Position numbers and translations under genes: made by a program. Below, piece by piece: positions 4,333 through 19,239 of a DNA stretch of 33,809 nucleotides (position 1 is its first letter; every line of letters starts with the position of its first letter). This DNA is from Phormidium sp. OSCR (GTDB lineage: Bacteria; Cyanobacteriota; Cyanobacteriia; Cyanobacteriales; Geitlerinemataceae), in NCBI GenBank assembly GCA_001314905.1, contig LJZT01000045.1, positions 1 to 33,809 on the forward strand. Direction: 5' to 3'. The notes under the pieces are model-generated. The model was not told the DNA's origin. It saw only the letters and a program-made list of their open reading frames with translations, and made no database searches.

Positions 4333-5088
4333 TTATCCCTGGAACTCATCGGGATTGATCCCTAACTGTTGCAGGCGATCGCGCAACCGTCGAACCTCCT
4401 CTTCAGCCCGATTTGCCCGTTCTCGTTCCAACTCCTCCGGCGTGAGAATCCAATGGCCGCCCTCGCGATACCAGCGTAGCCAACGGCGGCTAATTCCCTG
4501 ATAAGTTCCCTCCCAGAGTCCTAAACCTAACTGAACCTCCTCTAACCAAACCCCTAAACCATCCATGGGTAGCGGTTGATAAGCATTCATTATCAAGCCA
4601 AAGGCTTGAAACTCATCGGTATAGCGATTGAAGACAAAATAATAGGGAATCCGTAAAATCTGCTCATACACCGTCCATTTATTCGGCGGGCGACTGGCAT
4701 CTCGTAAACTGCGCCCCAAATCCTCCGCCTCCGTTCCCGGTGACAACAACTCAACCGCCACAAACGGATACACCCCCTCCTGCCAGGTGACATAACTCAA
4801 CCGCAAATCCCGTTCTTCATAGAGTTTAGGAACCCCCAACACTGCGAACCAATCCGGGCGTTTATACCATTGGGGATGGCGAACATCGTAATAAAGATTG
4901 AGATCACTGGCCGTAAACAACTCATCCTCCCCATAGGTGGGGGGACGGAAGGTTAAGCGCAACAACTCCGGTTGGCGTAGATGAAACTCGTCAGGCAAAC
5001 CAGGCTCCTCCGGATTCTCACTGGGTAAGTCATACATCGTCGGTAAGACATCACGAGGAGGTAACGGATGAAACTCTTGAGATACCAT
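4333..5088 (-). CDS. Uma2 family (DUF820) putative endonuclease
   Basis: Uma2 proteins have a PD-(D/E)XK nuclease fold and occur in large numbers in cyanobacteria; their biological role is not established. The candidate core is PDWFAVLG followed by VAVELLSPGTEAEDLG, giving the Asp and Glu of the fold. A charged helical tail at the C-terminus (LERERANRAEEEVRRLRDRLQQLG) is typical of the longer Uma2 type. Two starts compete. ATG at 5094 has GGAG only 3 bases away; ATG at 5088 has GGAG at a more normal 9 bases and is preferred here, giving 251 residues. A second, unrelated-length Uma2 gene is at 15233. Confidence 0.85.
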   Translation of the reverse strand: MVSQEFHPLPPRDVLPTMYDLPSENPEEPGLPDEFHLRQPELLRLTFRPPTYGEDELFTASDLNLYYDVRHPQWYKRPDWFAVLGVPKLYEERDLRLSYVTWQEGVYPFVAVELLSPGTEAEDLGRSLRDASRPPNKWTVYEQILRIPYYFVFNRYTDEFQAFGLIMNAYQPLPMDGLGVWLEEVQLGLGLWEGTYQGISRRWLRWYREGGHWILTPEELERERANRAEEEVRRLRDRLQQLGINPDEFQG

Positions 5089-5135
5089 ACCCATACACTC
5101 CTAATCCGACTAAACAATTCCTATCAACCCTAGTT

Positions 5136-5155
5136 GGGGCGGGCGAACCCACCCC
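5136..5155. repeat. GC-rich hairpin upstream of the Uma2 gene
   Basis: GGGGCGGG (5136-5143) pairs with CCCACCCC (5148-5155) across one mismatch, with a 4-base loop. It lies in the 126-bp gap between trpB (3' end) and the Uma2 start on the same strand. It could terminate trpB transcripts or be a dispersed palindrome. Confidence 0.4.
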
Positions 5156-5183
5156 CTCATGCCAATTTCCCTCATGCCAATTT
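5154..5183. repeat. Perfect 15-bp tandem duplication
   Basis: CCCTCATGCCAATTT occurs twice head to tail (5154-5168 and 5169-5183) with no mismatch. It lies just beyond the 3' end of trpB. Confidence 0.9.
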
Positions 5184-5197
5184 AAGGAAACACCGTG

Positions 5198-5227
5198 AAC
5201 TACACATCTCCAAACTACACATCCCCT
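5198..5227. repeat. 15-bp tandem duplication over the trpB stop codon
   Basis: The unit beginning AACTACACATC is present at 5198-5212 and again at 5213-5227, with mismatches only at its end. The trpB stop codon (5215-5217) lies in the second copy. The first copy carries a further in-frame copy of the last codons and stop, so the coding region is unaffected. Confidence 0.85.
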
Positions 5228-6462
5228 AAATTCAGATAACGCGCCGCCGTCTGCACATCCTTATCCCCCCGGCCCGAACAATTAATCACCACCGTTGCCC
5301 CATCGTCGAGTTGAGGGCAAAGGGTGTCTAAATAGGCAAAGGCGTGAGCCGTTTCTAGGGCAGGAATGATGCCCTCTAAACAGGACACCAACTGAAACGC
5401 TTGCATGGCTTCATCATCGGTGACGCTGTAATACTCCGCCCGGCCCGTATCTTTCAAATAGCTATGTTCAGGGCCAACTCCGGGATAGTCCAAGCCGGCA
5501 CTAATGGAGTGAGCCTCGGTGACTTGGCCATCGTCATCCTGCAACAGATAACTCATGGCCCCATGTAACACCCCCACTTTGCCCTGGGTTAAGGTGGCGG
5601 CGTGTTTGGCGGAGGTAACGCCCTCCCCAGCGGCTTCAACGCCAATCATGCGCACCGAGGCATCGTTGACAAACTCATAAAACAGTCCCATGGCGTTGGA
5701 ACCGCCGCCGACACAGGCCAGCAACACATCCGGTAAGCCATCCCAGAGTTCTTGACATTGGCGGCGGGTTTCTTGGCCGATGACGGCGTGGAAGTCGCGC
5801 ACCATCATGGGATAGGGATGGGGGCCGGCAACGGAACCGAGGATGTAGTGAGTGGTTTCGACGTTCGTCACCCAGTCGCGAATGGCCTCGGAGGTGGCAT
5901 CTTTGAGGGTTCCGGTTCCGGCACTGACGGGTTCGACTTTGGCTCCCAACAGGCGCATCCGCACTACGTTGAGGGCTTGCCGTTTCATGTCTTCGACGCC
6001 CATATAGACGATGCACTCTAAGCCAAAGCGAGCGCAGGCCGTGGCGGTGGCGACGCCATGCTGGCCGGCCCCGGTTTCGGCGATGATGCGCTGTTTGCCC
6101 ATGCGTTTGGCCAGGAGGGCCTGGGCGATCGCATTATTAATCTTATGCGCTCCCGTATGGTTGAGGTCTTCCCGTTTCAGGTAAATTTTCGCCCCAGTGC
6201 CATCAGGACGGGCATAATGTTCGGTGAGTCGTTCGGCGAAGTACAGAGGCGAGGGCCGTCCGACGTAATCTTTGAGGAGTCCGTTGAGTTCGGCATTGAA
6301 CTCGGGGTCATCTTTGTAGCGAGCAAAGGCTGTTTCCAGTTCCGCCAAGGCCGGCATCAGGGTTTCGGGGACATACTTACCGCCGAACTGTCCGAAGCGT
6401 CCGAGGGCATCGGGAACGGTTGCAGGGGTTGCGGAGGAGGGGGAAACGGGAGATACGGTCAT
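5215..6462 (-). CDS. trpB: Tryptophan synthase beta chain
   Basis: TrpB condenses indole and L-serine to L-tryptophan using PLP, in the alpha2-beta2 tryptophan synthase. The protein has 415 residues, normal for the TrpB1 type. The PLP lysine is K107 in NHTGAHKIN; the catalytic Glu is E129 in AETGAGQHG. The phosphate-binding glycine loop GGGSN follows near the middle, and the C-terminal NCSGRGDKD segment binds the pyridine ring. The first about 20 residues (Ser, Pro, Ala, Thr) are low-complexity and precede the conserved [13 protein letters not shown]. No trpA is adjacent, as is common in cyanobacteria where trp genes are scattered. No clear Shine-Dalgarno is visible before ATG 6462. Confidence 0.97.
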
Positions 6463-6575
6463 ATTGGCTTGATGGACGGCTTACCCTACTCATTATAGGC
6501 GGCCAAGGGGCGGCATTTCTACTGAGTTGATTGGGGCAGGGAAACAAGAATGGAGTCGAATCAAAGCATTTACCG

Positions 6576-6615
6576 TCAGTACGTATTGACGATGTAAATA
6601 TGTGCGATCTACAAT
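6576..6615 (+). promoter_or_regulatory. Promoter and possible operator of the brnTA pair
   Basis: TTGACG (6586-6591) and TACAAT (6610-6615) make a near-consensus sigma-70 promoter with an 18-bp spacer. An imperfect palindrome, TCAGTACGTATTGA (6576-6589), overlaps the -35 box and could be the antitoxin's operator, since BrnA-type antitoxins repress their own operon. Transcription would begin near 6622, next to ATG 6623, implying a leaderless or nearly leaderless mRNA. Confidence 0.6.
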
Positions 6616-6622
6616 GCAGGGC

Positions 6623-6919
6623 ATGGATGTACATTTCCTGCTCAATGGCGTCACCTTCGTTTGGAATGACGAGAAGGCCCGGGTTAATCCCCTCAACCAT
6701 GATGGAGTTACCTTTCAGCAAGCTGCCGAGGCCTTCTTTGACCCATTCCTGTCAGTCGTTGATGCAAGTCGCAATGATGAAGCCCGCGACGCTGTTATCG
6801 GTTTGGATAGACGCTGGAACCTTCTATATGTCGTCTATATAGAGCCTGAAAATGACACCATTAGACTTATCTCGGCCCGCAAAGCAACACGCAAGGAACG
6901 TGAATACTATGAAGGTTGA
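6623..6919 (+). CDS. brnT: BrnT family ribonuclease toxin
   Basis: BrnT toxins are small RelE-fold ribonucleases that block translation and are neutralised by a BrnA-type antitoxin encoded just downstream. From ATG 6623 the protein has 98 residues, the usual size. Family landmarks are the start DVHFLLNGVTFVWNDEKA, the HDGVTFQQAAEAFFDP segment, LLYVVYIE, and the C-terminal ISARKATRKEREYYE with its basic residues. Other in-frame starts are ATG 6614 (inside the likely -10 box) and GTG 6602; both add residues that BrnT proteins normally lack. The last 11 bases overlap the antitoxin gene, which suggests translational coupling. Confidence 0.85.
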   Translation: MDVHFLLNGVTFVWNDEKARVNPLNHDGVTFQQAAEAFFDPFLSVVDASRNDEARDAVIGLDRRWNLLYVVYIEPENDTIRLISARKATRKEREYYEG

Positions 6920-7193
6920 TACGTTGAAACAACGGTTGAATCGAGATCGGCCCATGACAACGATTACGATTCGGATGCCAGAAGATGTGATTGCTGATCT
7001 CAAGCATCTCGCGCCATTGTTGGGATTTTCTGGGTATCAGCCTTTGGCACGGGCCTATATTGGTCAAGGGCTGCGTGCTGACCTTGAGCGATTGGAGGCA
7101 GATACCCTCTCTGCGTTGATTGCCAGTTTGAAGCGTCAGGGTGTGAGTGATGACGTGCTTCACAAGGCGCTAGGTGAGGCGACTCAGCGTTAG
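6909..7193 (+). CDS. BrnA/CopG-like ribbon-helix-helix antitoxin
   Basis: This is the likely antitoxin of the upstream BrnT. ATG 6909 lies inside the toxin gene, with AAGGA at 6893-6897 as ribosome-binding site, and gives 94 residues. The segment MTTITIRMPEDVIADLKHLA reads as the beta strand and first helix of a ribbon-helix-helix DNA-binding domain. GYQPLARAYIGQGLRADL matches the conserved region of antitoxins that accompany BrnT. The C-terminal helix should wrap the toxin. It probably represses the 6586-6615 promoter. An upstream in-frame start at 6852 would sit deep inside the toxin gene and is not credible. Confidence 0.75.
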   Translation: MKVDTLKQRLNRDRPMTTITIRMPEDVIADLKHLAPLLGFSGYQPLARAYIGQGLRADLERLEADTLSALIASLKRQGVSDDVLHKALGEATQR

Positions 7194-7249
7194 CCTAAAG
7201 CCCAAAGTTCGCCCAACACAGGGTTAGTGCGGATGGAATAGAGGCTATT

Positions 7250-7289
7250 GGTGAGGGTTCAAGCTTATCTACCACCACCCAACCTCACC
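7250..7289 (+). terminator. Possible hairpin after the brnTA pair
   Basis: GGTGAGG (7250-7256) pairs with CCTCACC (7283-7289), extended by TT/AA across one bulge, with a loop of about 21 bases. It lies 56 bases after the antitoxin stop codon. No T-run follows, so a terminator role is only suggested by position. Confidence 0.3.
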
Positions 7290-7311
7290 GTTAGAACTCA
7301 TCAATACGTTA

Positions 7312-7380
7312 GGAATTGAAATGGATGTGAACGCCTAGTTTGGCCAGTTCCTCAATGATGTCTTCGACGGTTTAAGTCAT
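7312..7380 (-). pseudogene. 3'-end remnant of a second J-domain protein gene
   Basis: Read on the minus strand this piece encodes TVEDIIEELAKLGVHIHFNS and a stop. That is almost the same as the C-terminus TVEDIIDELAKLGVHINFNQ of the intact J-domain gene at 13128-14195. A stop codon two codons after the apparent ATG and the lack of any upstream coding sequence show it is dead. By eye the 69 bases are about 80% identical to 13131-13199, and most differences are silent. That implies the copy diverged while still functional and was truncated later. Similarity ends sharply at 7380. Confidence 0.75.
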
Positions 7381-7696
7381 ACCATATCTTTATACTCTTG
7401 ACATCGCCTTAAATCGCCATTTAGAATGTAGGTTAGTCTTAAAGGGACACTCAAAAAATATAACAAAACATAAGAAAAGTTTACTTTTTATAACAAAAAA
7501 ACACAAGCACAAAAGAGGAGAAAACTAGCAGCAAAAGTGGCGGCAAAGGCTCATCGCGCAATATCTCACCGAAATTGGAGTAATTCATTTTAAAAAAACT
7601 AGAGAGCAGTTCTTAGAATTGAGTCCAATTGACTTGAGATCAGCGTCTAGACCCAATAATGCGATTATTGTCATTGTCTTGACTCAAGCTAAATTC
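7381..7696. other. AT-rich leader before the kinase gene
   Basis: This stretch is rich in A-tracts (7440-7520), unlike its surroundings, and contains no HIP1 site. The kinase frame stays open upstream to a stop near 7528 and includes a TTG at 7619, but no ATG or GTG with family similarity. AGAGGAG near 7515 resembles a ribosome-binding site, but no convincing gene follows it. Bent A-tract DNA may matter for the kinase promoter, which I could not place. Confidence 0.35.
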
Positions 7697-10600
7697 ATGA
7701 ACGCCAACCTTACCAATTCCCCTGACTCACGTCCGATGATTGATGGCTATACGGTCACTGAACAGCTATACTCAGGTTCAGGAACTGCCGTCTATCGAGC
7801 CATACAGGAGACTCGACAGCGTTCAGTGGTGATTAAGGTGTTGCAACGTGAATATCCTAGTTTTGGGGAATTGGTGCAGTTTCGCAATCAGTATCTGATT
7901 ACCAAACGCCTGACTATCCCTGGCATCGCCAAACCCTTGGCTTTAGAACCCTTTGGCAATGGTTATGCGCTCGTAATGGAAGATACTGGCAGCCTATCCC
8001 TGAGCCAATATCTTGAGAATCAATCCCTGAGCCTATTGGACATCCTTGAAATTGCGATTCAATTGACGAGCATTCTCCAGCAGTTACATCAGCAGCGAAT
8101 TATCCATAAAGATATCAAGCCCGCCAATATTCTCATTGCGCCAAACTCTAAACACATCACGCTGATTGATTTTAGTATTGCTTCCCTGCTGCCCAAGGAA
8201 ACTCAAACCATCCAAAGCCCCCAAGGGTTAGAAGGAACTCTGGCTTACTTGGCTCCTGAACAAACCGGGCGGATGAATCGAGGTATTGACTATCGTACCG
8301 ACTTTTATGCTCTAGGGGTGACTCTCTATCAACTCTTGACGGGAGAATTACCATTTCCGGGTGATGATCCCCTAGAGGTCATTCATAGCCATATCGCCAA
8401 AACAATAACTCCAGTTCATGAGGTTAACCCTGAGAGTCCGGCCATGCTGGGGGCAATTGTGGCTAAACTGATGGCGAAAAATGCCGAAGACCGCTATCAA
8501 AGTGCCTTGGGATTAAAGTACGATTTGGAACAATGTTTGAGCCAATGGCAAGAAACCGGTGAGATATCAGATTTTGAATTGGGTAAGCGGGATTTGAGCG
8601 ATCGCTTCCTCATCCCCGAAAAGCTCTACGGTCGAGAAACAGAAGTAGCCCAGTTATTAACCGCCTTTGACCAGGTCGCCGAGGGAACCTCAGAACTCAT
8701 GCTAGTGGCGGGCTTTTCGGGCATCGGCAAAACCGCCGTCATCAATGAAGTCCATAAGCCCATTGTCCGGCAGCGGGGCTATTTCATCAAGGGTAAATTC
8801 GATCAACTTAATCGCAATATTCCCTTTTCTGCCTTTATCCAAGCCTTTAGTGATCTAGTCGGACAATTACTCTCGGAATCTGATCAGCAACTGCAACGCT
8901 GGAAGGCCGACCTTCTGGCAGCCCTAGGAGATAACGGTCAAGTCCTCATCGATCTCATCCCTGAACTCGAACAGATTATTGGGCCACAACCTCCCGCCTC
9001 AGAACTCTCCGGCGAAGCCGCCCAAAACCGCTTTAACCGCCTGTTCCAAAACTTTATTCAGGTTTTTACAAAGGTAGAACATCCCCTGGTCATCTTTATC
9101 GATGACCTGCAATGGGCCGACTCTGCCTCCTTGGGCTTAATGCAAAGTCTGTTGACGGAAGCCCAATGTCAATATCTCCTAGTCTTGGGAGCCTATCGAG
9201 ATAATGAAGTGTTTCCCGGTCATCCCTTCTTGATGACGATTAAAGCCCTAGAAAATGCCGAGGTCACCCTTGACACCCTCAGCCTCGGTCCCTTGGATGC
9301 TGATAGCCTCAATCACCTCATTGCCGATGCTTTCCAAGCTTCAGAAAACATCGTGCAGCCCTTGAGCGATCTAATCATGCAAAAGACCCAGGGCAATCCC
9401 TTCTTTGCGACGCAATTCCTCAAGGCATTACACCAAGATGGTCTGATTACCTTTAACCGGGAGGGGGGTCACTGGGAATGCGACCTGGTGCGGGTACAGG
9501 ATGCCGCCTTAACTGATGACGTGGTGGACTTCATGGCCTTGCAGTTACAAAAACTGCCCCTTGCCACCCAGGAACAGCTTAAATTAGCGGCTTGTATTGG
9601 GGCAAGGTTTGACCTCAAGACATTGACCATTGTTTCAGAAAAAAACGAAATTCAAGTTGCGTCAGACCTGTGGCCAGCGCTGCAACAGGGTCTGATTGTG
9701 CCAAAGAGTAAAATTTACAAGTTCTATTTAGATGATGAGCAATCCCAGGAGCATAAATCGCTGAGTGAAGATATTTCTGAGCAAATTGACTATCGTTTTT
9801 TTCATGATCGTGTGCAACAAGCTGCCTACTCGTTAATTCCTGACGATCAGAAGTGGGAAACTCACTGGGAAATCGGGAAACTAATACTGCATAAATTGTC
9901 GGCAAGCGAACGAGAAGCAAAATTATTTGAGATCGTCAATCAGTTGAATATCGGTATTCGCTCCGTTGAGGAACCCATCGAACGAGAAGAAATAGCAAGA
10001 CTGAATTTAGCCGCTGCGGACAAGGCTAAAGCTTCCACGGCATACAGTGCCGCTTTTGACTATTTACAAACCTGTTTTGCACTGCTGACTCGAGACTGCT
10101 GGCGGCGACAATACGATCTCACTCTAACGGCGACAAGTGCAGCGGCAGAAGTTGCCTATTTGCAGGGAGATTTTGCAACCATGCAGCAGCAGATTGACGC
10201 TGTTTTGCAACATGCGACAACTCTGCTGGATCAAGTTGGAGTTTACGAGACAAAAATCCAGGCGCATATCGTACAAAATCAGTTTTTAGAAGCCGTGAAT
10301 ACGGCGCTGCATATTTTGCGGTTATTGGGATTAGAGTTTACTGATGACCCCAGCTCAAACGATACTCAGCAAAAGCTGACAGAAACCGCAAATCTTTTGA
10401 GCGCGCAAGCGATATCTTCACCGACCCATCTGCCAGAAATGACTTCAGCCACTGGACTCGCTACAACGCGAATTTTAGTTAAAGTCATTTCAGCGACCTA
10501 CATTGCCAAGCCTTCCTTGTTACCTCTAATAATTTGCGAAGGTATTAACTTGTTTTTGCGCCAGGGAAATAACTCCCTTTCTGCGTTTGTGTATGCCTGG

Positions 10601-13099
10601 TATGGTGTGATCCTCTGCACGGCGGTTGGGGATATTTCTCTGGGGTATGAAATGGGAGAAGTTGCTCTAGAACTGCTCAACAAATTTGATGCCAGGGAAA
10701 TCAAAGCCCGGACAGAGTTCACAGTTTACTATGCTATACAACATTGGAAAATTCATATTTTCGAGACAGTACATCCTTTCTCAAGGAGCTATCAAATAGG
10801 ATTAGAAAATGGTGATTTAGAGTATGCTTCTTGGTCAGCATTTTGCTACTGCTACCATTCTTATATTGTAGGTTGCGAACTAACAGAATTACACCGCACC
10901 ATGGGAGTTTATCGAGAGGCCATTGCCAAGGCGCGACAGGAAGCAGCTTTCAACTATCTGAGTATCTTTCACCAATCAGTCCAAAATTTGTTGTCTAAAT
11001 CCCAGGACTGGAGTGTCCTGGAAGGGGAGGCGTACAGTGAAGCCCAAACTTTGCCCGTTCAATTAGCAGCCAATGATGGGACAGGACTAAATTTTCTGTA
11101 TATCAGTAAGTTGATATTAGCCTATTTATTCGAGCAATTTGAACAGGCGATCGCCATAGCGAAGACAGCAGAAAATTATATTCACACAGGGGCTGCCTAT
11201 ATTCCCGTATTCCATTTCTATGATTCCTTAATTCAACTGGCGGTTGTCAGTGACTATCGAGATGAGCGACAGCAACAATTAGAACGAGTGAACTTAAATC
11301 AACTCAAACTGGGGACATGGGCCGATCATGCTCCAATGAACTACCAACACAAATTTGATTTAGTAGAAGCTGAACGACATCGGGTATTAGGAAACAGAGC
11401 AGAAGCAATCGAACTCTACGATCGCGCTATTTCTGGCGCCAAAACGAATAGTTATACTCAAGAAGAAGCCTTAGCTCACGAACTCGCCGCAAGGTTCTAC
11501 CTTGACTGGGGCAAAGAAAAGGTTGCCGCCGGCTATATGCAGGACGCTTACTACTGCTATAGCCGTTGGGGAGCCAAGGCCAAAGTTGCCAATTTAGAAC
11601 AACGCTATCCCCAACTCCTGCAACCCATCCTGCAACCGGTTGTTCACTCTTTTGATGTGTTAAACACCGTCAGCACCATCTCCAGGGCAACGGTGATGAG
11701 TCAGACTGGAATCTCACAGGCGAGCGGCTCTGACATTAACCAGACTTTGGATTTAGCCAGTGTCATCAAAGCCTCTCAAGCCCTTTCTGGAACCTTACAA
11801 CTTGATGAATTGCTCAGTCAACTGACGCAGATTATTTTGAGAAATTCTGGGGGCGATCGCTGCGTTCTGATTATTCCCAATGATTCGGGTGCATGGCAAG
11901 TTCGGGCAATCACAACCCCGGATACAGTTCATCTCTGTACAGAGGCGATCGAGGAAAGTCCCGATTTGGCCCTGAAGCTGATTCAGTATGTCAAAAACAC
12001 CCAAAACGTCGTAATTATCGATAACTTAGTCACCGACTTACCGGTTTTAGATCAGTATCTACAAACGCAACAACCGAAAAGTGTACTCGGTTTGCCCATC
12101 CTGACTCAGGGGCGTTGTCTTGGGATTTTGTATCTGCACAATCAGTTAAGCGCGGGCGTGTTCACACCAGAACGCATGGCTGTTCTAAGTTTCCTTTGCA
12201 CCCAAGCCGCGATTTCCCTAGAAAACGCTCAGTTGTATGAACAGGTGCAACAGTCCCTCACGCATTTGCAGCACGCCCAACTTCAGTTAGTCCAGAGTGA
12301 AAAAATGTCTGCCCTGGGGGGATTAGTGTCTGGGGTGGCCCATGAGATTAATAACCCGGTGGGTTGCATTTTGGGCAACGTGGGAGCCACAGAAGACTAT
12401 TTTAACGATCTATTGGGATTGCTCGACTTGTATGGGGAAGCGTTCCCGGAGCCGGGAGAGGAGATTGAAGCGGAACTGGAGGCGGTGGAGTTAGACTATG
12501 TGCGGCAGGATTTATCCCAGTTGATTCGGGCGATGCGGGATAGTGGCGATCGCATTAAATCCATCAGCGAAAGTTTACGCACCTTCTCCCGAAAAGACAC
12601 CGATTCTAAGCAGTCGTTTAATCTCCATGAGGGCCTTGATAGTACCTTACTAATTTTGCGTCATCGTCTCAAAGCCAATGAGCATCGCCCTGAGATTGAG
12701 GTAATCAAAAATTATGGTTCACTGCAACCCGTTGATTGCTTCCCTGGGCAACTGAATCAGGTGTTTATGAATATTCTAGCGAATGCTATTGATGTATTTG
12801 ATGATTTTGCTCAACAGTCGTCTTTTGCCGCCCTTAAAGCGCAAAAGCAGCAGATTACCATCGAGACTCGATTCGTTGACAATGGGGTTACTATTAAAAT
12901 CGCGGATAACGGATCGGGCATTCCTGAGGAAATTCAAGACCAAATTTTTGACAATTTGTTTACCACCAAAGCGGTGGGGAAAGGAACAGGCTTAGGGTTG
13001 GCGATCGCCCGTCAGATTGTAGTCGATGTCCACGGGGGACAATTAGAGGTCAATTCACAACTTGGTCAAGGGACAGAATTTTTGATTAGTCTTCCTTAA
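7697..13099 (+). CDS. Trifunctional Ser/Thr kinase / ATPase / sensor histidine kinase
   Basis: This is one of the giant cyanobacterial signalling proteins, 1800 residues from ATG 7697. The order is as follows. First comes a Ser/Thr protein kinase (about 14-285) with catalytic H137-K138-D139 (IIHKDIKPANIL) and D158-F-S. Next is an AAA/NACHT-like predicted ATPase with Walker A GFSGIGKT (339-346) and Walker B ending D469-D470. A long helical TPR-like region follows (about 700-1320), then a GAF domain (about 1351-1517). Last is a histidine kinase: the H-box GVAHEINNP holds H1549, and N and G boxes (NGSGIPEE, KGTGLGLAIA) follow. There are no membrane segments, so it is cytoplasmic. The partner response regulator is not in the window. 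ATG 7736 is an alternative start. Catalytic HKD in place of HRD is common in this class. Confidence 0.93.
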   Translation: MNANLTNSPDSRPMIDGYTVTEQLYSGSGTAVYRAIQETRQRSVVIKVLQREYPSFGELVQFRNQYLITKRLTIPGIAKPLALEPFGNGYALVMEDTGSLSLSQYLENQSLSLLDILEIAIQLTSILQQLHQQRIIHKDIKPANILIAPNSKHITLIDFSIASLLPKETQTIQSPQGLEGTLAYLAPEQTGRMNRGIDYRTDFYALGVTLYQLLTGELPFPGDDPLEVIHSHIAKTITPVHEVNPESPAMLGAIVAKLMAKNAEDRYQSALGLKYDLEQCLSQWQETGEISDFELGKRDLSDRFLIPEKLYGRETEVAQLLTAFDQVAEGTSELMLVAGFSGIGKTAVINEVHKPIVRQRGYFIKGKFDQLNRNIPFSAFIQAFSDLVGQLLSESDQQLQRWKADLLAALGDNGQVLIDLIPELEQIIGPQPPASELSGEAAQNRFNRLFQNFIQVFTKVEHPLVIFIDDLQWADSASLGLMQSLLTEAQCQYLLVLGAYRDNEVFPGHPFLMTIKALENAEVTLDTLSLGPLDADSLNHLIADAFQASENIVQPLSDLIMQKTQGNPFFATQFLKALHQDGLITFNREGGHWECDLVRVQDAALTDDVVDFMALQLQKLPLATQEQLKLAACIGARFDLKTLTIVSEKNEIQVASDLWPALQQGLIVPKSKIYKFYLDDEQSQEHKSLSEDISEQIDYRFFHDRVQQAAYSLIPDDQKWETHWEIGKLILHKLSASEREAKLFEIVNQLNIGIRSVEEPIEREEIARLNLAAADKAKASTAYSAAFDYLQTCFALLTRDCWRRQYDLTLTATSAAAEVAYLQGDFATMQQQIDAVLQHATTLLDQVGVYETKIQAHIVQNQFLEAVNTALHILRLLGLEFTDDPSSNDTQQKLTETANLLSAQAISSPTHLPEMTSATGLATTRILVKVISATYIAKPSLLPLIICEGINLFLRQGNNSLSAFVYAWYGVILCTAVGDISLGYEMGEVALELLNKFDAREIKARTEFTVYYAIQHWKIHIFETVHPFSRSYQIGLENGDLEYASWSAFCYCYHSYIVGCELTELHRTMGVYREAIAKARQEAAFNYLSIFHQSVQNLLSKSQDWSVLEGEAYSEAQTLPVQLAANDGTGLNFLYISKLILAYLFEQFEQAIAIAKTAENYIHTGAAYIPVFHFYDSLIQLAVVSDYRDERQQQLERVNLNQLKLGTWADHAPMNYQHKFDLVEAERHRVLGNRAEAIELYDRAISGAKTNSYTQEEALAHELAARFYLDWGKEKVAAGYMQDAYYCYSRWGAKAKVANLEQRYPQLLQPILQPVVHSFDVLNTVSTISRATVMSQTGISQASGSDINQTLDLASVIKASQALSGTLQLDELLSQLTQIILRNSGGDRCVLIIPNDSGAWQVRAITTPDTVHLCTEAIEESPDLALKLIQYVKNTQNVVIIDNLVTDLPVLDQYLQTQQPKSVLGLPILTQGRCLGILYLHNQLSAGVFTPERMAVLSFLCTQAAISLENAQLYEQVQQSLTHLQHAQLQLVQSEKMSALGGLVSGVAHEINNPVGCILGNVGATEDYFNDLLGLLDLYGEAFPEPGEEIEAELEAVELDYVRQDLSQLIRAMRDSGDRIKSISESLRTFSRKDTDSKQSFNLHEGLDSTLLILRHRLKANEHRPEIEVIKNYGSLQPVDCFPGQLNQVFMNILANAIDVFDDFAQQSSFAALKAQKQQITIETRFVDNGVTIKIADNGSGIPEEIQDQIFDNLFTTKAVGKGTGLGLAIARQIVVDVHGGQLEVNSQLGQGTEFLISLP

Positions 13100-13127
13100 T
13101 ATGACATTCTCTGCTAGAGGAAGGATG

Positions 13128-14195
13128 TTACTGATTGAAATTGATATGAACCCCGAGTTTAGCCAGTTCATCGATGATATCTTCGACGGTTTCCGGCATA
13201 TCCTGTTCGGAGCGAGATGGGCCGCACAAAAACTCTTTGATGGTTATCTTTTTGTCGCGAAAATCTTTGATAAAATTTCGTAATTCTTCCAAAGATGCGA
13301 GTTCCTCTTCAAATTCTTCCAAGGACTCTTCGACTAAATCTGTTCCCTCCCGTTGGGCTTTGCGATACTCTTTCACCATCATCCCTTGGGGTGTATTGCG
13401 GGCTTGGCGAACCTGACTTTTTAACTGTTCATATTGCTGTTCGAGAATTTTCAAATCCTGTTCGAGTTGCTTGCACTGGCGATCGCGATCGTTCTCTGAG
13501 GTTTCGATGTCTGCCTCATCGTCGCTTTGTCGTTCGATTTCCAACAAGCGGGCGAAATCACCACTTTTATAGGCAATATTCACCTCTTTCATGATTTCGG
13601 TATAATGCTGATGTTTGTCGGGATCAGTTATTTTATCCGGGTGAAAGCGATCGGCTAATTTCAGAAACAGTTTTCTCATATCCCGTGAGGGACGAGGGGT
13701 GTGAGTAGTTTCAAAGGGAGAATGACCGCCCCAGTCTGAATCGTCCTCGTCGTTGAAAAATCCCTCATCCTCACCATTGGGATGCGATCGCTCAGCTTCA
13801 GCTTCTTCCTCACGAGCGAAGTCTTCATCGTCTTCATCAAATTTAGGACTAATGCGACCTGTAAATTGCAGAATTTCGTAAACTTCACGGATTTCGCGTT
13901 TTGTTTTTTTGCCAAGTTTGCGTTTGGTGAAAATGTCATGAAATAACTCATGAATTTCGTGATCGAGCTTTTGGGCTTGCTCGTAAATCGGTTGACCATG
14001 AGAAAACATTGATCGCGCAATCTCTTGAATCTGGTTCGTTAAGTTTGACAGTTCCGTTTGCTTGCGCTTAATTAAGGTCAATACCTTTTTTTGCCGTTCT
14101 TGCAGGAACTCAAAGCGAGCATCTGGGGACGTCGATGCCAGGGCCGCTTCTGAAACCTGATGATTGCCTTTTTGTTGTTTCTTTTTTTTAGCCAT
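13128..14195 (-). CDS. J-domain protein with central HPD motif
   Basis: The protein has 355 residues. The J domain is not N-terminal: MRKLFLKLADRFHPDKITDP puts HPD at 185-187, followed by the third helix EIMKEVNIAYKSGDF. J domains stimulate the ATPase of DnaK/Hsp70, so this is likely a co-chaperone, but it lacks the Gly/Phe and zinc-finger parts of classic DnaJ. Before the J domain are a Lys-rich start (AKKKKQQKG), a coiled coil (about 25-110) and an acidic linker (about 119-156). After it, another coiled coil (about 235-300) leads to a conserved tail, TVEDIIDELAKLGVHINF. ATG 14195 has GGAG 12 bases upstream. A decayed second copy of the tail is at 7312-7380. Confidence 0.85.
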   Translation of the reverse strand: MAKKKKQQKGNHQVSEAALASTSPDARFEFLQERQKKVLTLIKRKQTELSNLTNQIQEIARSMFSHGQPIYEQAQKLDHEIHELFHDIFTKRKLGKKTKREIREVYEILQFTGRISPKFDEDDEDFAREEEAEAERSHPNGEDEGFFNDEDDSDWGGHSPFETTHTPRPSRDMRKLFLKLADRFHPDKITDPDKHQHYTEIMKEVNIAYKSGDFARLLEIERQSDDEADIETSENDRDRQCKQLEQDLKILEQQYEQLKSQVRQARNTPQGMMVKEYRKAQREGTDLVEESLEEFEEELASLEELRNFIKDFRDKKITIKEFLCGPSRSEQDMPETVEDIIDELAKLGVHINFNQ

Positions 14196-14258
14196 TTGTT
14201 TGATTGTCTCCGGTCGTTTCTTACTATGCTGCCAAGCTATACTACTAAACTCTTCACC

Positions 14259-15152
14259 TCAGGACAGAGATAATAAGCCCAAAACTAAGGGCAATGTCCC
14301 AAAGGCCAACACCGAGGACATGGCCACCACTCGCGCAGTCCGCACAGAATCGCCGCCAAACTCTTTCACCATCAAGAACGAACTCACCGCAGCGGGCATG
14401 GAACATTGCAACACCAACACCTGCAAATCTAGTCCATCTAAACCCAGCACTTGCCCCACCGTATAAGCGACAGCCCCGCCCCCGAGAAGTCTCACACTAC
14501 TGGCAAAGAGATCATAGCGAGTGAGTTTCAGGGAACTTTGGGAAATCTCAATCCCTAACACCACTAAGGCCACGGGAATGGTTCCATCGGCTAAGACTTT
14601 GAGGACGCGATCGAGTTGAAACGGCAGTTCAAAGGGAAGCAGCCGCAGGGCCAGTCCCACGAGCATGGCCCAAATTAAGGGTAGCTTCAGGGTGAATTTG
14701 AGGGCATTGGTGAACCCGCCCCCTTTGAGGATAGCGGGACCGGTGGAAAAGACCAAGAGGCTGGAGATAATCAGGACGATCGCCGCTCGATTCAGTCCTT
14801 CCTCGCCAAAAGCAAACAGACTCACCGATAGGCCCATGTTGCCAGTGTTGGGAAAGGCACTGGTGGCGATCGCACTTTTACGCACAGGAGCAGAGAACCG
14901 CAAAAGACCACTCAGCCCCCAAGCAATGGCTCCCATCAGCGCGTAAGTCACTGAAAACGCCAAAAATAACCCTTTGGCGTTTTCCACGGTTATAGGGCTG
15001 CGATAGAGGGACTCAGCCACCAGAGCGGGGGTAAAGATATAGAGGGTAATCCGCGAGAGACTAACTCGGTCCAGGGTAAAGGTTTTCCCGGCCCAGAAGC
15101 CAATGAGGACAATGGTAAGAACCGGAAGAATGGCTGAGAGGATGGCAGTCAT
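14259..15152 (-). CDS. AEC family transporter (auxin efflux carrier-like permease)
   Basis: This is an integral membrane protein of 297 residues with about ten hydrophobic segments in two repeats, as in the bile/arsenite/riboflavin and AEC superfamily. The start MTAILSAILPVLTIVLIGFWAG and the FTPALVAESLYRS and SAFPNTGNMGLSVSLFAFGEEG segments are typical of AEC carriers; the Asn-Thr-Gly-Asn turn is the hallmark. Bacterial members move malonate, malate or other organic acids, but the substrate here is unknown. Its 3' end is less than 70 bases from the J-domain gene start on the same strand. A weak AAGG-like site precedes ATG 15152. The Uma2 gene at 15233 is divergent. Confidence 0.9.
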   Translation of the reverse strand: MTAILSAILPVLTIVLIGFWAGKTFTLDRVSLSRITLYIFTPALVAESLYRSPITVENAKGLFLAFSVTYALMGAIAWGLSGLLRFSAPVRKSAIATSAFPNTGNMGLSVSLFAFGEEGLNRAAIVLIISSLLVFSTGPAILKGGGFTNALKFTLKLPLIWAMLVGLALRLLPFELPFQLDRVLKVLADGTIPVALVVLGIEISQSSLKLTRYDLFASSVRLLGGGAVAYTVGQVLGLDGLDLQVLVLQCSMPAAVSSFLMVKEFGGDSVRTARVVAMSSVLAFGTLPLVLGLLSLS

Positions 15153-15232
15153 TACAAAGGCTTGTCAAGGGAGAACGGCGAGTTTGGCACACTAAGGATA
15201 AGCTTGTTACCCATGATGGAGGAATTTTAACC

Positions 15233-15883
15233 ATGGCGATCGCTACCGCACCCACCTCGACTCAACCCACCTGCACCGCCGAAGACTATCTCCAACAGGA
15301 AGTACAACAGGAGACTCGCAACGAATATCGCAATGGAGAGATTGTGCCCATGAGTGGTGGAACCCCGGCCCATAATGAAATCACGGGCAATTTGTTTGTA
15401 TTGTTGAAGCTGGCTCTCAAACGCCAGCCCTATCAGGTCTTTATCACGGACCAACGCCTCTGGATTCCCCAACGCAACACCTACACCTATCCCGATGTGA
15501 TGGTGACCCCGAAACCTTGCCAATTGCAGGCGGGACGCAACGATACGGTCATTAACCCCATTGTGCTAGCCGAGGTTCTCTCTCCCTCCACTCAGAACTA
15601 TGATCGCGGTGAAAAGTTTGTCACCTATCGGACCCTCGACAGCGTCCAAGACTATCTCCTGATTCACCAAGACCGTCCCCAGGTGGAACATTACGTCAAG
15701 CAAAAGCCCCAACAATGGTTGTTGACAGACTATGAGGGCCTAGATGTCACCTTAACCCTGGAGTCTCTGTCCCTGACCTTGAGTTTGAGAGATTTGTATG
15801 AGGCCGTGGATTTCCCGACCACCGTTGAGACGTCAACTCCCCCCACTGACGACAATCCCCAGGAGGAGGACTCGGAAACTTAA
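15233..15883 (+). CDS. Uma2 family (DUF820) putative endonuclease
   Basis: This is a shorter, typical Uma2 protein of 216 residues with a PD-(D/E)XK-like fold; the in vivo function is unknown. The usual order of landmarks is present: TAEDYLQQEVQQETRNEYRNGEIVPMSG with the early Glu, HNEITGNLF, YPDVMVTP with the Pro-Asp, and LAEVLSPSTQNYDRGEKF with the Glu of the core and a following Lys. The tail is Pro/Thr/Glu-rich and probably disordered. GGAGG about 10 bases upstream of ATG 15233 fixes the start. The SRP RNA promoter begins only 8 bases after its stop codon. Confidence 0.9.
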   Translation: MAIATAPTSTQPTCTAEDYLQQEVQQETRNEYRNGEIVPMSGGTPAHNEITGNLFVLLKLALKRQPYQVFITDQRLWIPQRNTYTYPDVMVTPKPCQLQAGRNDTVINPIVLAEVLSPSTQNYDRGEKFVTYRTLDSVQDYLLIHQDRPQVEHYVKQKPQQWLLTDYEGLDVTLTLESLSLTLSLRDLYEAVDFPTTVETSTPPTDDNPQEEDSET

Positions 15884-15891
15884 AAGATTTC

Positions 15892-15922
15892 TTGAAACAA
15901 CTGCCCGGACTCGTGTTATACT
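15892..15922 (+). promoter_or_regulatory. Promoter of the SRP RNA gene
   Basis: TTGAAA (15892-15897) and TATACT (15917-15922) are good -35 and -10 boxes with a 19-bp spacer. The predicted start at about 15929-15931 coincides with the 5' end of the SRP RNA deduced from its terminal helix. Confidence 0.65.
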
Positions 15923-15930
15923 CAGATGTA

Positions 15931-16024
15931 GACCCGGACTCATGCAATTACAACGCCCAAACCTTGTCAGGACCGGAAGGTAGCAGCAATACGGGATGCT
16001 TGTAATCGGCGTGAACTCCGGGTC
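15931..16024 (+). ncRNA. ffs: Signal recognition particle RNA, small bacterial type
   Basis: This 4.5S-like RNA of about 94 nt binds Ffh and directs membrane-protein ribosomes to FtsY. The conserved domain IV is unmistakable: GTCAGGACCGGAAGGTAGCA followed by the GCAATACGGG segment gives the GGAA tetraloop and the symmetric and asymmetric loops that bind the M domain of Ffh. The ends pair as GACCCGGA (15931-15938) with TCCGGGTC (16017-16024), which sets the boundaries. The exact mature ends may differ by a few bases. A promoter lies just upstream. Confidence 0.95.
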
Positions 16025-16696
16025 GCCTCATTTGACCCTTAATCCTCACCCCGTCCCCCTAACCCTCGCCCCCTAACTTTCAGTTAGCGTTTTTTTACCT
16101 CGCAATGTTGATTAAAAAAACAACATTGCCACTCCAACCCGCCGCTCCCCTAGGGAGAACGTTCGGTTATCCGCCTCTACTTGTTGGTGTATGAGGGGTC
16201 AAACCCCCCACCCAGTCTTTTGTTCAGCCAATTCGCCATCGCCGCAGGTCTCAAAAAAAACCCTAGACAAGTCAGAGAGTCCTCAGAAAAACAGCTTCAA
16301 TTGGTGCGGTAGAACACAGTTTTTAGAAAAGTTCCCGGATGTCAAAAAAATACAGATTTGCTGCCGATTTTAGTGAAGAAACATTACAACTTTGGCAAAA
16401 CCTCCCAAAAACCGGCTGAAAGTGATGAGGGTTAGCACCATGGTTTGACGCAAATCACTAAACCTAAATTAAAAGCTCCCTATACTAACGTTAGTGCCTC
16501 AGTTCGTGGCGATTTCAAGAATATCAGCGCCGTCAGCGTCAAAACCTGACCGGTGATCGACTGATTCAGAGGGGGTTAAGCGAACGAGGACAAGCCGGCG
16601 ATCGCCTGCGATCACGATCACAAAACGAGGGATCTTCTCCGAATCATCGGACTCCCTTAACCCCCAGTTAACTCAAAGGGATTGAGACGAGCGACC
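16025..16696. other. Long leader region of the sigma factor gene
   Basis: No gene is credible in these 672 bases. A hairpin with 9-bp arms GCAATGTTG (16102-16110) and CAACATTGC (16121-16129) encloses an A-rich loop. A perfect palindrome, ACTAACGTTAGT (16484-16495), overlaps the -10-like box TATACT (16481-16486). Further on, GGGGGTTAAG (16571-16580) is repeated inverted as CTTAACCCCC (16656-16665), enclosing a HIP1 site, so the messenger leader can fold just before the start. The layout suggests regulated expression, at transcription or through the leader. Confidence 0.45.
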
Positions 16697-17977
16697 ATGT
16701 CTAAAACAACTTCTTACCAACCCGCCAAATCTGACCATCGTCCTAATAAAACCGGAGCCACAGAAGCCATGACTGCCCAGACAGATGCCCCATCAAGCAT
16801 GAGTAATTCTAGTCTCGAAGAGAGTGAATTAGACGCCACATCGGGCATGGAAGTGGAATACGCCGAAGCCGATGAGTCCATTCGTGGACACCGAACCACC
16901 ACCGATCTGGTGCGGTTGTATCTTCAAGAGATCGGCAAAGTCAACCTATTAGGACGAGATGAAGAAGTCTCCGTCGCCCAGAAAGTGCAGCGATACGTCA
17001 GCCTGCTGGAGGTGCGACAGACCGCAGCCGAGGCGGGGGATGAGATCATGCAGCAATATGTGCATCTTATGAACGCCCGCGATCGCCTCAGTTCCCAACT
17101 TGGCCATCGTCCCTCCCTCGAACGCTGGGCCAACGAAGCTCAGATTCGGGTCTGTGACCTCAAACCCACCCTCAGTCAAGGTAAACATCATTGGGCTAAC
17201 CTAGCAGACATCTCCGTCGAAGAACTCGAAACCATCCAAACCGAGGGAGTTTATGCCAAGGCCCATATGATTAAGGCCAATTTGCGGTTAGTGGTCTCCG
17301 TCGCCAAGAAATACCAAAAACGAGGTCTCGAACTCTTAGATCTGATTCAAGAAGGAACCATCGGCTTAGAGCGAGCCGTCGAAAAATTTGACCCCACCCG
17401 AGGCTACCGATTTAGCACCTACGCCTACTGGTGGATTCGCCAAGGAATTACCCGAGCCATCGCCACCCAAAGTCGAACCATCCGCCTCCCGGTTCACATC
17501 ACCGAAAAGCTCAACAAAATCAAAAAAGCCCAACGTCAGTTCTCCCAAGACAACGGTCGTACCCCCACCATCAACGACATCGCCGAAGAACTCGACATGA
17601 CCGCCGAACAAATCCGGGAAGTCATGTTACGCGTTCCCCGCTCCATCTCCCTCGATGCCAAAGTGGGTAAAGAAAAAGACACCGAACTCGGAGATCTCCT
17701 CGAAACCGATGACGCATCCCCCGAAGACTTGTTAGTGCGTGAATCCCTACAACGGGAATTGCAACAACTCCTCGCCGACCTCAGCAGTCGGGAACGGGAC
17801 GTCATCCGTTTACGCTATGGACTCGGCGGAGAAAGCCCCTACTCCTTAGCCGAAATCGGTCGGGCTTTGGATCTCTCCCGCGAGCGAGTGCGTCAGATTG
17901 AAGCCAAGGCCTTGCAAAAACTGCGTCAACCCAAACGACGCAACCGAGTTCGGGATTTCTTGGAAGCCTTAGGTTAG
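16697..17977 (+). CDS. RNA polymerase sigma factor, RpoD/SigA family, group 2
   Basis: This sigma-70 protein has 426 residues from ATG 16697; a TTG 15 bases earlier is in frame but less likely. It directs RNA polymerase to promoters. The first about 60 residues are Ser/Thr/Glu-rich and unconserved. Region 1.2 is TTDLVRLYLQEIGKVNLLGR. Region 2 runs from NLRLVVSVAKKYQKRGLELL through STYAYWWIRQGITRAIA, the core-binding, -10 and melting parts. Region 3 follows from IRLPVHI, and region 4.2 ends with LSRERVRQIEAKALQKLR for the -35 box. The spacer between 1.2 and 2 is longer than in primary SigA, which suggests a non-essential group 2 factor, possibly SigC-like; I do not assign the letter. Confidence 0.93.
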   Translation: MSKTTSYQPAKSDHRPNKTGATEAMTAQTDAPSSMSNSSLEESELDATSGMEVEYAEADESIRGHRTTTDLVRLYLQEIGKVNLLGRDEEVSVAQKVQRYVSLLEVRQTAAEAGDEIMQQYVHLMNARDRLSSQLGHRPSLERWANEAQIRVCDLKPTLSQGKHHWANLADISVEELETIQTEGVYAKAHMIKANLRLVVSVAKKYQKRGLELLDLIQEGTIGLERAVEKFDPTRGYRFSTYAYWWIRQGITRAIATQSRTIRLPVHITEKLNKIKKAQRQFSQDNGRTPTINDIAEELDMTAEQIREVMLRVPRSISLDAKVGKEKDTELGDLLETDDASPEDLLVRESLQRELQQLLADLSSRERDVIRLRYGLGGESPYSLAEIGRALDLSRERVRQIEAKALQKLRQPKRRNRVRDFLEALG

Positions 17978-17988
17978 AAGCCTCAGCC

Positions 17989-19239
17989 TTAAACCGGGGT
18001 CGCCAGTAAATCCTCAAGTTTGCCCAAAAACGCATCAGCTTGGTCAAACCAAAATTCTGCGTTCCAGTAGACAAAACAACTGGTTTCGCAGACGAGGAGG
18101 AGTTGGCGAGCCTCATCCCAACTTGGGTCTCCTGGAGCGGCTTGTTCAGCAACCCGACGACTGAGAGCCTCAATCCTGAGGGCGATCGCTTGACGGCGAT
18201 CGCCCTCATTCCAGCTATTATGGCCACCAATCCAAGAGCCACCCGTTGTATTTAGAGACACCGCAGTTGGTGTTTGTCCGTCGAGGTGGCGATCGAGATA
18301 TTGGCTCACCGTTAGCATCTCCACATCCGCCAACTGGGGCATCATCTCCACCAACGGCACAAACGTATTCTTAAAATACTCAAACATCATCACATTGCCG
18401 TTTTCCCCATCTGAAGTTGGCACAATCAACGGGGGTCCAGAAAGCTGTTCGCGCTCAAACACCTCTAAGCGATAGCGGATATCATTCAAACAACCATCCG
18501 CATTATGGCCACTTTGCTGACGGATGCCCATATCCGTATCCCGAACCACACAGAGGATGCTTTCCGTCTCTGCGTCCCCCTGCACCCGTAACTCATGGAC
18601 TTGATTTTCCAACTGAGGCGTCGTCCAACCCTCTGGCCGAGACAAGGCTGACGCCGGCAGAATCAGCCACTCATAGCCACAGCGTTTGAGAAGTCGGATC
18701 AAGGCGATCGCCCGTTGAGGCTCTCCCATCATCCCCATTTCCGGCAACCAAAACCCCTTCACTCGCTCCAGGGCCGCCGCTCCAAACAAATCTCCAAAAA
18801 CCTGTTTCCAACCCATAATCTGGGCTTCCCAGTCCCGTTCCGGTGTCGTCGGGAAATAGCAGTGACTATAAGCCGTTCCCGCAAACTCGATCGCCTCAGG
18901 ATACTCATTGAGAACCTCTCGCCACAGAGCAATCACATCCCCAAGGGGTTCTCCATCCACATGGCGATTGGCAAACGTTCCATCCCCAGAAAGTTTCGCC
19001 AACTCTTCGAGCAAAACTCCCGAATAGTCCACCATCATGCGCGGCTGAAGTCCCCGTTGAGACAAGTCCCGGGCATACTTGGCCGGATTCTTATAAGCCT
19101 GAGCAAACCACTGCGCATTCCAGCCTTCCTCTGAATTGGGATCACCGTTAAGCATTTTCTCAAGATTCCCCAGCGGCTGATGATTCCACCAGATCGGGGG
19201 TTGGTGCATATGGAGCCAGGGGACAAAAATTGCGTTCAT
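17989..19239 (-). CDS. Glycoside hydrolase family 57 protein
   Basis: GH57 enzymes are retaining alpha-glucan hydrolases, branching enzymes or glucanotransferases with a (beta/alpha)7 barrel. From ATG 19239 the protein has 416 residues. Visible are the start VPWLHMHQPP (with the His pair of the first strand), GFWLPEMG with the probable nucleophile E167, and TSDGENGN with D277 as a candidate acid/base. It is likely cytoplasmic (no signal peptide) and may act on glycogen. An upstream extension of the frame to 19350 is only translated heptad repeat and is excluded. The gene converges on the sigma factor gene with an 11-bp gap. The exact reaction cannot be read from the sequence. Confidence 0.88.
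   Translation of the reverse strand: MNAIFVPWLHMHQPPIWWNHQPLGNLEKMLNGDPNSEEGWNAQWFAQAYKNPAKYARDLSQRGLQPRMMVDYSGVLLEELAKLSGDGTFANRHVDGEPLGDVIALWREVLNEYPEAIEFAGTAYSHCYFPTTPERDWEAQIMGWKQVFGDLFGAAALERVKGFWLPEMGMMGEPQRAIALIRLLKRCGYEWLILPASALSRPEGWTTPQLENQVHELRVQGDAETESILCVVRDTDMGIRQQSGHNADGCLNDIRYRLEVFEREQLSGPPLIVPTSDGENGNVMMFEYFKNTFVPLVEMMPQLADVEMLTVSQYLDRHLDGQTPTAVSLNTTGGSWIGGHNSWNEGDRRQAIALRIEALSRRVAEQAAPGDPSWDEARQLLLVCETSCFVYWNAEFWFDQADAFLGKLEDLLATPV

Follow-up and report, generated by a model that had tools for sequence, protein, structure and literature searches.

A kinase gene between two copies of a J-gene 3′ end

The window analysed here is a 33,809-nt stretch of Phormidium sp. OSCR (contig LJZT01000045.1, positions 1 to 33,809; assembly GCA_001314905.1, below G000, a 100%-complete draft of 4.69 Mb in 187 contigs), a Sodalinema-like cyanobacterium whose genus we take to be Sodalinema. 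It carries an intact gene for a 355-aa J-domain protein (the J gene) and a giant dual kinase gene, and the last codons of the J gene occur a second time on the far side of the kinase. The J-domain profile match of the 355-aa protein is weak (PF00226, E 0.005, under the Pfam cut-off); an HPD motif is visible in its sequence.

A repeat search over positions 5000-16000 found the J-gene end in two same-orientation copies at 7308-7381 and 13127-13200, with 81% identity over 74 nt and a start-to-start spacing of 5819 nt. When the right copy was compared to the window by BLAST, the left copy was recovered at 84% identity over 67 nt (E 5e-16), while the runner-up had an E value of 0.25. No third copy was found in the whole G000 assembly in searches at E up to 0.001, leaving two places only. 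On the minus strand the left copy reads ...GMT-stop-TVEDIIEELAKLGVHIHFNS-stop, an orphan of ~24 codons with a single internal stop, and nothing convincing of a further J-gene remnant was found beside it in 7382-7696 (best match 14 nt, E 0.14). The features of the locus are listed below; the left native flank was delimited by colinearity with the closest relative, and the two copies by the repeat search, the comparison of J termini and the mosaic count.

6909..7308, left native flank, colinear with the empty site of G001
7309..7381, minus strand, left copy of the J-gene 3′ end, dead
7309 to about 7328-7333, minus strand, native-like part of the left copy, the old J end (...HIHFNS stop)
about 7328-7333 to 7381, minus strand, incoming-like part of the left copy, TVEDIIEELAKLGV, with an internal TAA
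7382..7696, AT-rich lead of the insert, 34.9% GC
7697..13099, plus strand, giant dual kinase, Pkinase - AAA_16 - GAF - HisKA - HATPase_c
13100..13127, insert-borne 28-nt spacer from the kinase stop to the J-gene stop
13128..13200, minus strand, right copy, the living J-gene end
13128 to about 13147-13152, minus strand, incoming-like part of the right copy (...INFNQ stop); the remainder is native-like
13128..14195, minus strand, J-domain gene, intact, 355 aa

The site is empty in relatives

Seven genomes of the genus were compared, G000 and six congeners. The J gene is complete in five congeners, and in all five the kinase is absent at the J-gene end, of which each genome has a single one; in the sixth, G003, the one J gene is truncated by a contig end and is uninformative for the site. 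No second J gene was found in the seven genomes. In the closest congener, G001, whose J protein is 95% identical, the sequence matching window positions 6909-7381 is colinear and unbroken at 91% identity (locus L030) and runs into the single J end of that genome, and the alignment with G001 resumes at this J end for window positions 13134-18657. The empty site is thus represented by G001 and the occupied site by G000.

The J homologue of G174, a more distant genome from another family (77% identity), has no kinase on its 3′ side either. The kinase was also compared by tblastn to 53 loci that represent 47 distinct J-match places, several of them weak or partial, drawn from matches in 147 of 388 and 22 of 59 genomes. 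These loci mostly extend 1.5 kb to each side (0.5 kb in L106; L019, L020 and L026 have no 3′ flank), and at no tested locus having a 3′ flank did a kinase lie 3′ of J. Kinase matches at five J loci (in G005, G006 and G174) cover the HATPase region only, at 31-33% identity, and lie 5′ of J, and were therefore set aside as something other than the present insertion. Since the five informative congeners have a single J end and no kinase at it, and G174 likewise lacks the kinase there, the 5.8-kb segment is a genuine insertion at the J-gene 3′ end, specific to the G000 lineage.

An earlier sequence-only reading of the window had described two same-orientation copies of the J-gene end, one intact and one dead, and had held that the 5.8-kb kinase segment was rearranged here. 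Both points stand, the rearrangement being an insertion at the J-gene 3′ end, and the synteny comparison that it proposed gave one J gene without the kinase at its end in each of the five informative congeners.

Probable native and incoming parts of the two copies

The J termini of six readable relatives are IHF (G174), IHFNS, IHFES, IHFDS (twice) and IHFD. INFNQ is the terminus of the living J gene of G000 only; the dead copy has IHFNS. The dead copy is the same as the G001 empty site next to the stop codon and departs from it further in; the living gene shows the reverse. We counted this pattern over the 73-nt end, with G001 as reference and positions numbered from the stop codon. Differences private to the living copy fall at positions 4, 5, 6, 15, 19 and 34, and those private to the dead copy at positions 25, 28, 43, 46, 52, 66, 67 and 69, so that, of these 14 differences, the living copy has all five that fall in positions 1-24 and the dead copy eight of the nine beyond (hypergeometric p 0.003; 0.024 once adjacent changes were merged). 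The best single crossover, at positions 19-24, leaves 1 mismatch in the native parts and 13 in the foreign parts. Its likelihood gain over a model of a native living copy and a decayed dead copy is 6.5 log units, which was reached by a fraction of 0.00585 of 20000 shuffles. Given its rate of change elsewhere, the chance that the dead copy would be unchanged over its 24 native nt is 0.014.

The private differences of the dead copy lie mainly at third codon positions (6/8, p 0.02; 5/5 in the middle part); for scale, in the five congener J genes 17-35% of third positions differ from G000 when the final 25 alignment columns are excluded. The third-position bias in the dead copy points to a functional J gene as the probable ancestor of its foreign part. 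The idea in the earlier reading that mostly silent differences betray a coding history is thus borne out. Its further proposal that the dead copy derives from a diverged functional paralogue is not supported: no second J gene was found in the seven genomes, and the copy looks native on its stop side and foreign on its inner side. A diverged J end on the incoming DNA appears to explain the silent differences better than the decay of a resident paralogue. With moderate confidence, the two copies may be read as a reciprocal mosaic, hybrids resembling attL and attR that are each half native and half element. The insertion itself is independent of the mosaic statistics.

Content of the insert

The insert has a GC content of 46.1%, compared to 52.5% and 50.4% in its 5-kb flanks. 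Its lead (searched as 7385-7700) was without match in the six congeners; it contains a promoter-like TTGACA-18-TAGAAT on the plus strand at 7398-7427, with 11 of 12 consensus letters, and the direct repeat TATAACAAAA twice, at 7459 and 7489. Repeats in the lead were looked at as possible att-arm repeats, and one 10-nt direct pair and one 18-nt pair at 72% identity were found. Among open reading frames of at least 80 aa, the segment holds nothing besides the kinase and one antisense frame of 101 aa that lies within it. No transposase frame was visible and no inverted repeat of at least 20 nt links the segment ends; the flanking repeats, ~73 nt long and diverged, are not the short identical target duplication of a DDE transposon.

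The J-end pattern had 0 matches in IMG/VR, and the border region 7240-7740 had no match among phages. Among plasmids, the only match of this region was a 50-nt stretch (E 3e-3) in two Synechocystis plasmids, which lies in the native left flank, outside the insert. This stretch is intergenic (7244-7293, 82% identity), and in the one Synechocystis plasmid examined its match is flanked by genes for an ASCH-domain protein and an Rpn-family nuclease.

Type and relatives of the kinase

The open frame of the kinase spans 7619-13099 from a TTG, and the in-frame ATG at 7697 (1800 aa) is the more plausible start. A domain search found the Ser/Thr kinase, GAF and HisKA/HATPase domains in the order of the cbSTKIII kinases, and by this domain order the protein is classed as a Ser/Thr-His dual kinase of the ordinary cyanobacterial type. 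Of the 388 genomes sampled from the order, 342 have a DNA match to the insert, which may cover part of the gene only. The nearest relatives of the inserted kinase are a four-gene tandem array in G002 (61-68% aa identity) and an array in G121, a genome of another family (65% aa identity). A tree of 21 kinases, selected from the compared loci, unites the inserted kinase, the four array genes of G002 and two genes of G121 in one group with support 100/99; the position of the insert inside this group is less sure (81/99). The gene adjoining the G002 array on its right was matched in the other six genomes of the genus, none with a kinase match on that side (1.5 kb checked per genome, 0.9 kb in G003), so the G002 array also seems to be lineage-specific. 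Dual-kinase genes of 5.4 kb, arrayed in tandem with short spacers, were seen at L077 and L078 (G002), L083 (G121) and L084 (G117), and two of the four G002 copies are close to each other, including the 200 nt upstream (90%).

The G002 array was considered as a donor with the same border and rejected. Its flanks have no direct repeat better than chance, their sole significant match being inverted and extending into the last kinase gene; the array resembles the insert at the DNA level only from 7739 onward, and no J-end match was found at it. The low GC content of the insert, its unmatched AT-rich lead and the kinship of its kinase with those of G002 and G121 fit a horizontal arrival.

Neighbouring features

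Just left of the J-gene end, at 6602-7193, lie genes for a BrnT toxin (PF04365, E 7e-20) and a BrnA-like antitoxin, the match of the latter being weak (E 0.016, under the cut-off). The pair is absent in G006 and G004, while G005 is colinear through it; G001 and G002 are without match to the stretch in which most of the toxin lies (6525-6908 and 6673-6908) and keep the antitoxin region. On the 5′ side of J, gene order is less conserved: G005 and G006 have no further window match in the compared stretches, and in G002 and G004 an additional 3.5 and 1.9 kb, respectively, separate the J 5′ side from the membrane-transport gene that adjoins J in the window (L031-L034). A bacterial small signal recognition particle RNA was found at 15931-16027 (Rfam RF00169, 62.6 bits).

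Proposed mechanism and alternative explanations

We consider it likely that a single Campbell-type crossover took a circular DNA of ~5.8 kb, with the kinase and a diverged J end, into the chromosomal J gene. The incoming DNA would have been circular, at least transiently, with a diverged version of the last ~73 nt of the J gene next to the kinase, and recombination would have taken place once within the J-gene end, around 7328-7333 / 13147-13152. The J gene would thereby have remained intact with its last codons swapped (HIHFNS to HINFNQ), the old J end would have been stranded as the dead copy, and the cell would have acquired a cbSTKIII-type kinase convergent with the J gene. As one crossover with a diverged J end on the incoming DNA suffices, a resident second J gene is not needed. 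The recombinase could have been supplied by another element or since lost, and we slightly favour such a site-specific enzyme, encoded elsewhere or lost, over homology alone.

Several observations weigh against this scheme. No integrase gene is evident on the segment among open reading frames of 80 aa or more, and the tyrosine recombinase profile PF00589 had 0 matches in the G000 genome at E up to 0.001 in a search that was positive in 14 of 14 control genomes; for the resolvase profile PF00239, G000 has a single partial match, similar to partial ones in five congeners. The mosaic test covers 73 nt with one close reference only and gives moderate p-values, the count leaves out one position at which the two copies share a difference from G001, and the data had been inspected before some of the splits were chosen. 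Furthermore, the living-copy difference at position 34 falls in the native part, uninterrupted identity between the copies at the proposed crossover is just 5 nt, and the last J codons vary among relatives, so that the living end could have drifted. A donor J gene with the foreign end was not found, and none of the sampled congeners is conspecific with G000. As to the genus as a whole, PF00589 was matched in two of the seven genomes and was without match in G000 and four of the six congeners; XerC/XerD-type recombinases may be missing or very diverged in G000.

The strongest competitor, possible but less probable, is a variant that keeps the same insertion and end exchange and changes the enzyme: DNA of a related species, with a J end beside the kinase, would have been integrated by RecA or short-homology recombination without a site-specific enzyme. 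It would account for the lack of an evident integrase in the insert and of a PF00589 match in the genome, and for the resemblance of the foreign part to the end of a functional J gene. However, it leaves the junction of the J end with the AT-rich lead unexplained; moreover, ~73 nt at ~84% identity are short and diverged for RecA, and the 3′ end of a gene that is kept functional is a typical integrase site, as also for e14 in icd. An alternative explanation is a plain target duplication, in which ~73 nt of the native J end were duplicated, the left copy decayed and the right one drifted. This dispenses with a diverged J end and is in line with the internal stop in the dead copy and the variable J C-termini of relatives, and we nevertheless regard it as unlikely: the dead copy has eight changes in 49 nt yet none in the 24 nt by the stop, where the living copy did change, and its changes sit mainly at third codon positions. 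The length and divergence of the repeats and the lack of a visible transposase point the same way; to our knowledge, the target duplications made by transposases are far shorter than 73 nt.

Tandem J paralogues in the order J2 - kinase - J1, of which J2 lost all but its final 24 codons by deletion, would explain why the silent differences show a coding history. We judge this very improbable, given that no second J gene was found in the seven genomes, that the left flank and dead end are colinear with a single-J empty site, that the terminus shared by relatives would not be predicted on the dead copy, and that 7382-7696 holds no convincing J remnant. An assembly artefact is hardly credible: the assembly is a draft of 187 contigs, but a single 33.8-kb contig contains both junctions, identity between the copies is no higher than 84% over 67 nt and the junctions are biologically sensible.

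Under the single-crossover scheme, the locus offers a readable case of a large signalling gene entering a cyanobacterial genome, in which the empty site can be seen along with the replaced and the stranded J end, and it suggests one way in which dual kinases may have come to expand so patchily. The J protein ending in INFNQ where relatives have IHF is a marker for tracing the donor lineage. A broader idea, which we put forward as a long shot, is that cbSTKIII genes move between cyanobacteria as single-gene circles without an integrase, docking at gene ends by means of the recombinases of other elements and feeding lineage-specific arrays. Consistent with it, the same kinase subgroup is arrayed in G002, where its absence from congeners was judged by the flanking gene, and in a genome of another family.

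Comparison with known systems

The closest parallel is prophage e14 in the icd gene of E. coli K-12, an element that provides the terminal codons and leaves a 163-bp pseudo-end (PMC6379469). Similar to e14, the present insertion lies near the 3′ end of a protein-coding gene, apparently brings a replacement end with little change to the protein and strands the old end; occupied and empty sites are known, gene-end direct repeats lie at both borders and the gene is intact. The stranded end measures about 73 nt here compared to 163 bp for e14, and, unlike that 15-kb prophage, the segment has 5.8 kb with one kinase gene and no evident integrase. We therefore regard an insertion with gene-end exchange, of a known kind, as most likely, with a lone 5.4-kb kinase gene as cargo and no recognisable integrase gene as mildly surprising features.

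A cis-mobilizable element (CIME) lacks integration and transfer genes and is flanked by att sites (PMC5704250). The segment resembles this class in its att-like gene-end copies on both sides and in the absence of integration and transfer genes, and differs from it in the limited identity of its left and right copies (84% over 67 nt) and in that no related integrative and conjugative or integrative and mobilizable element was found in the IMG/VR, phage and plasmid searches. By the published definition the segment may be called CIME-like.

The cargo itself has well-described counterparts. The cbSTKIII dual kinases HstK/Alr2258, Pkn40 and Pkn41 (PMC2176072) have an N-terminal Ser/Thr kinase, a GAF domain and a C-terminal HisKA and ATPase, form sizeable paralogous sets with adjacent copies, and have an expression tied to nitrogen source or iron. 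The inserted kinase shares the domain order and belongs to paralogue sets with adjacent copies; it differs by its AAA_16 domain, the term 'AAA' having 0 mentions in that paper. A role in nutrient or stress responses, by analogy with HstK, Pkn40 and Pkn41, would be a guess. What is unusual about the inserted kinase is its place and the manner of its insertion.

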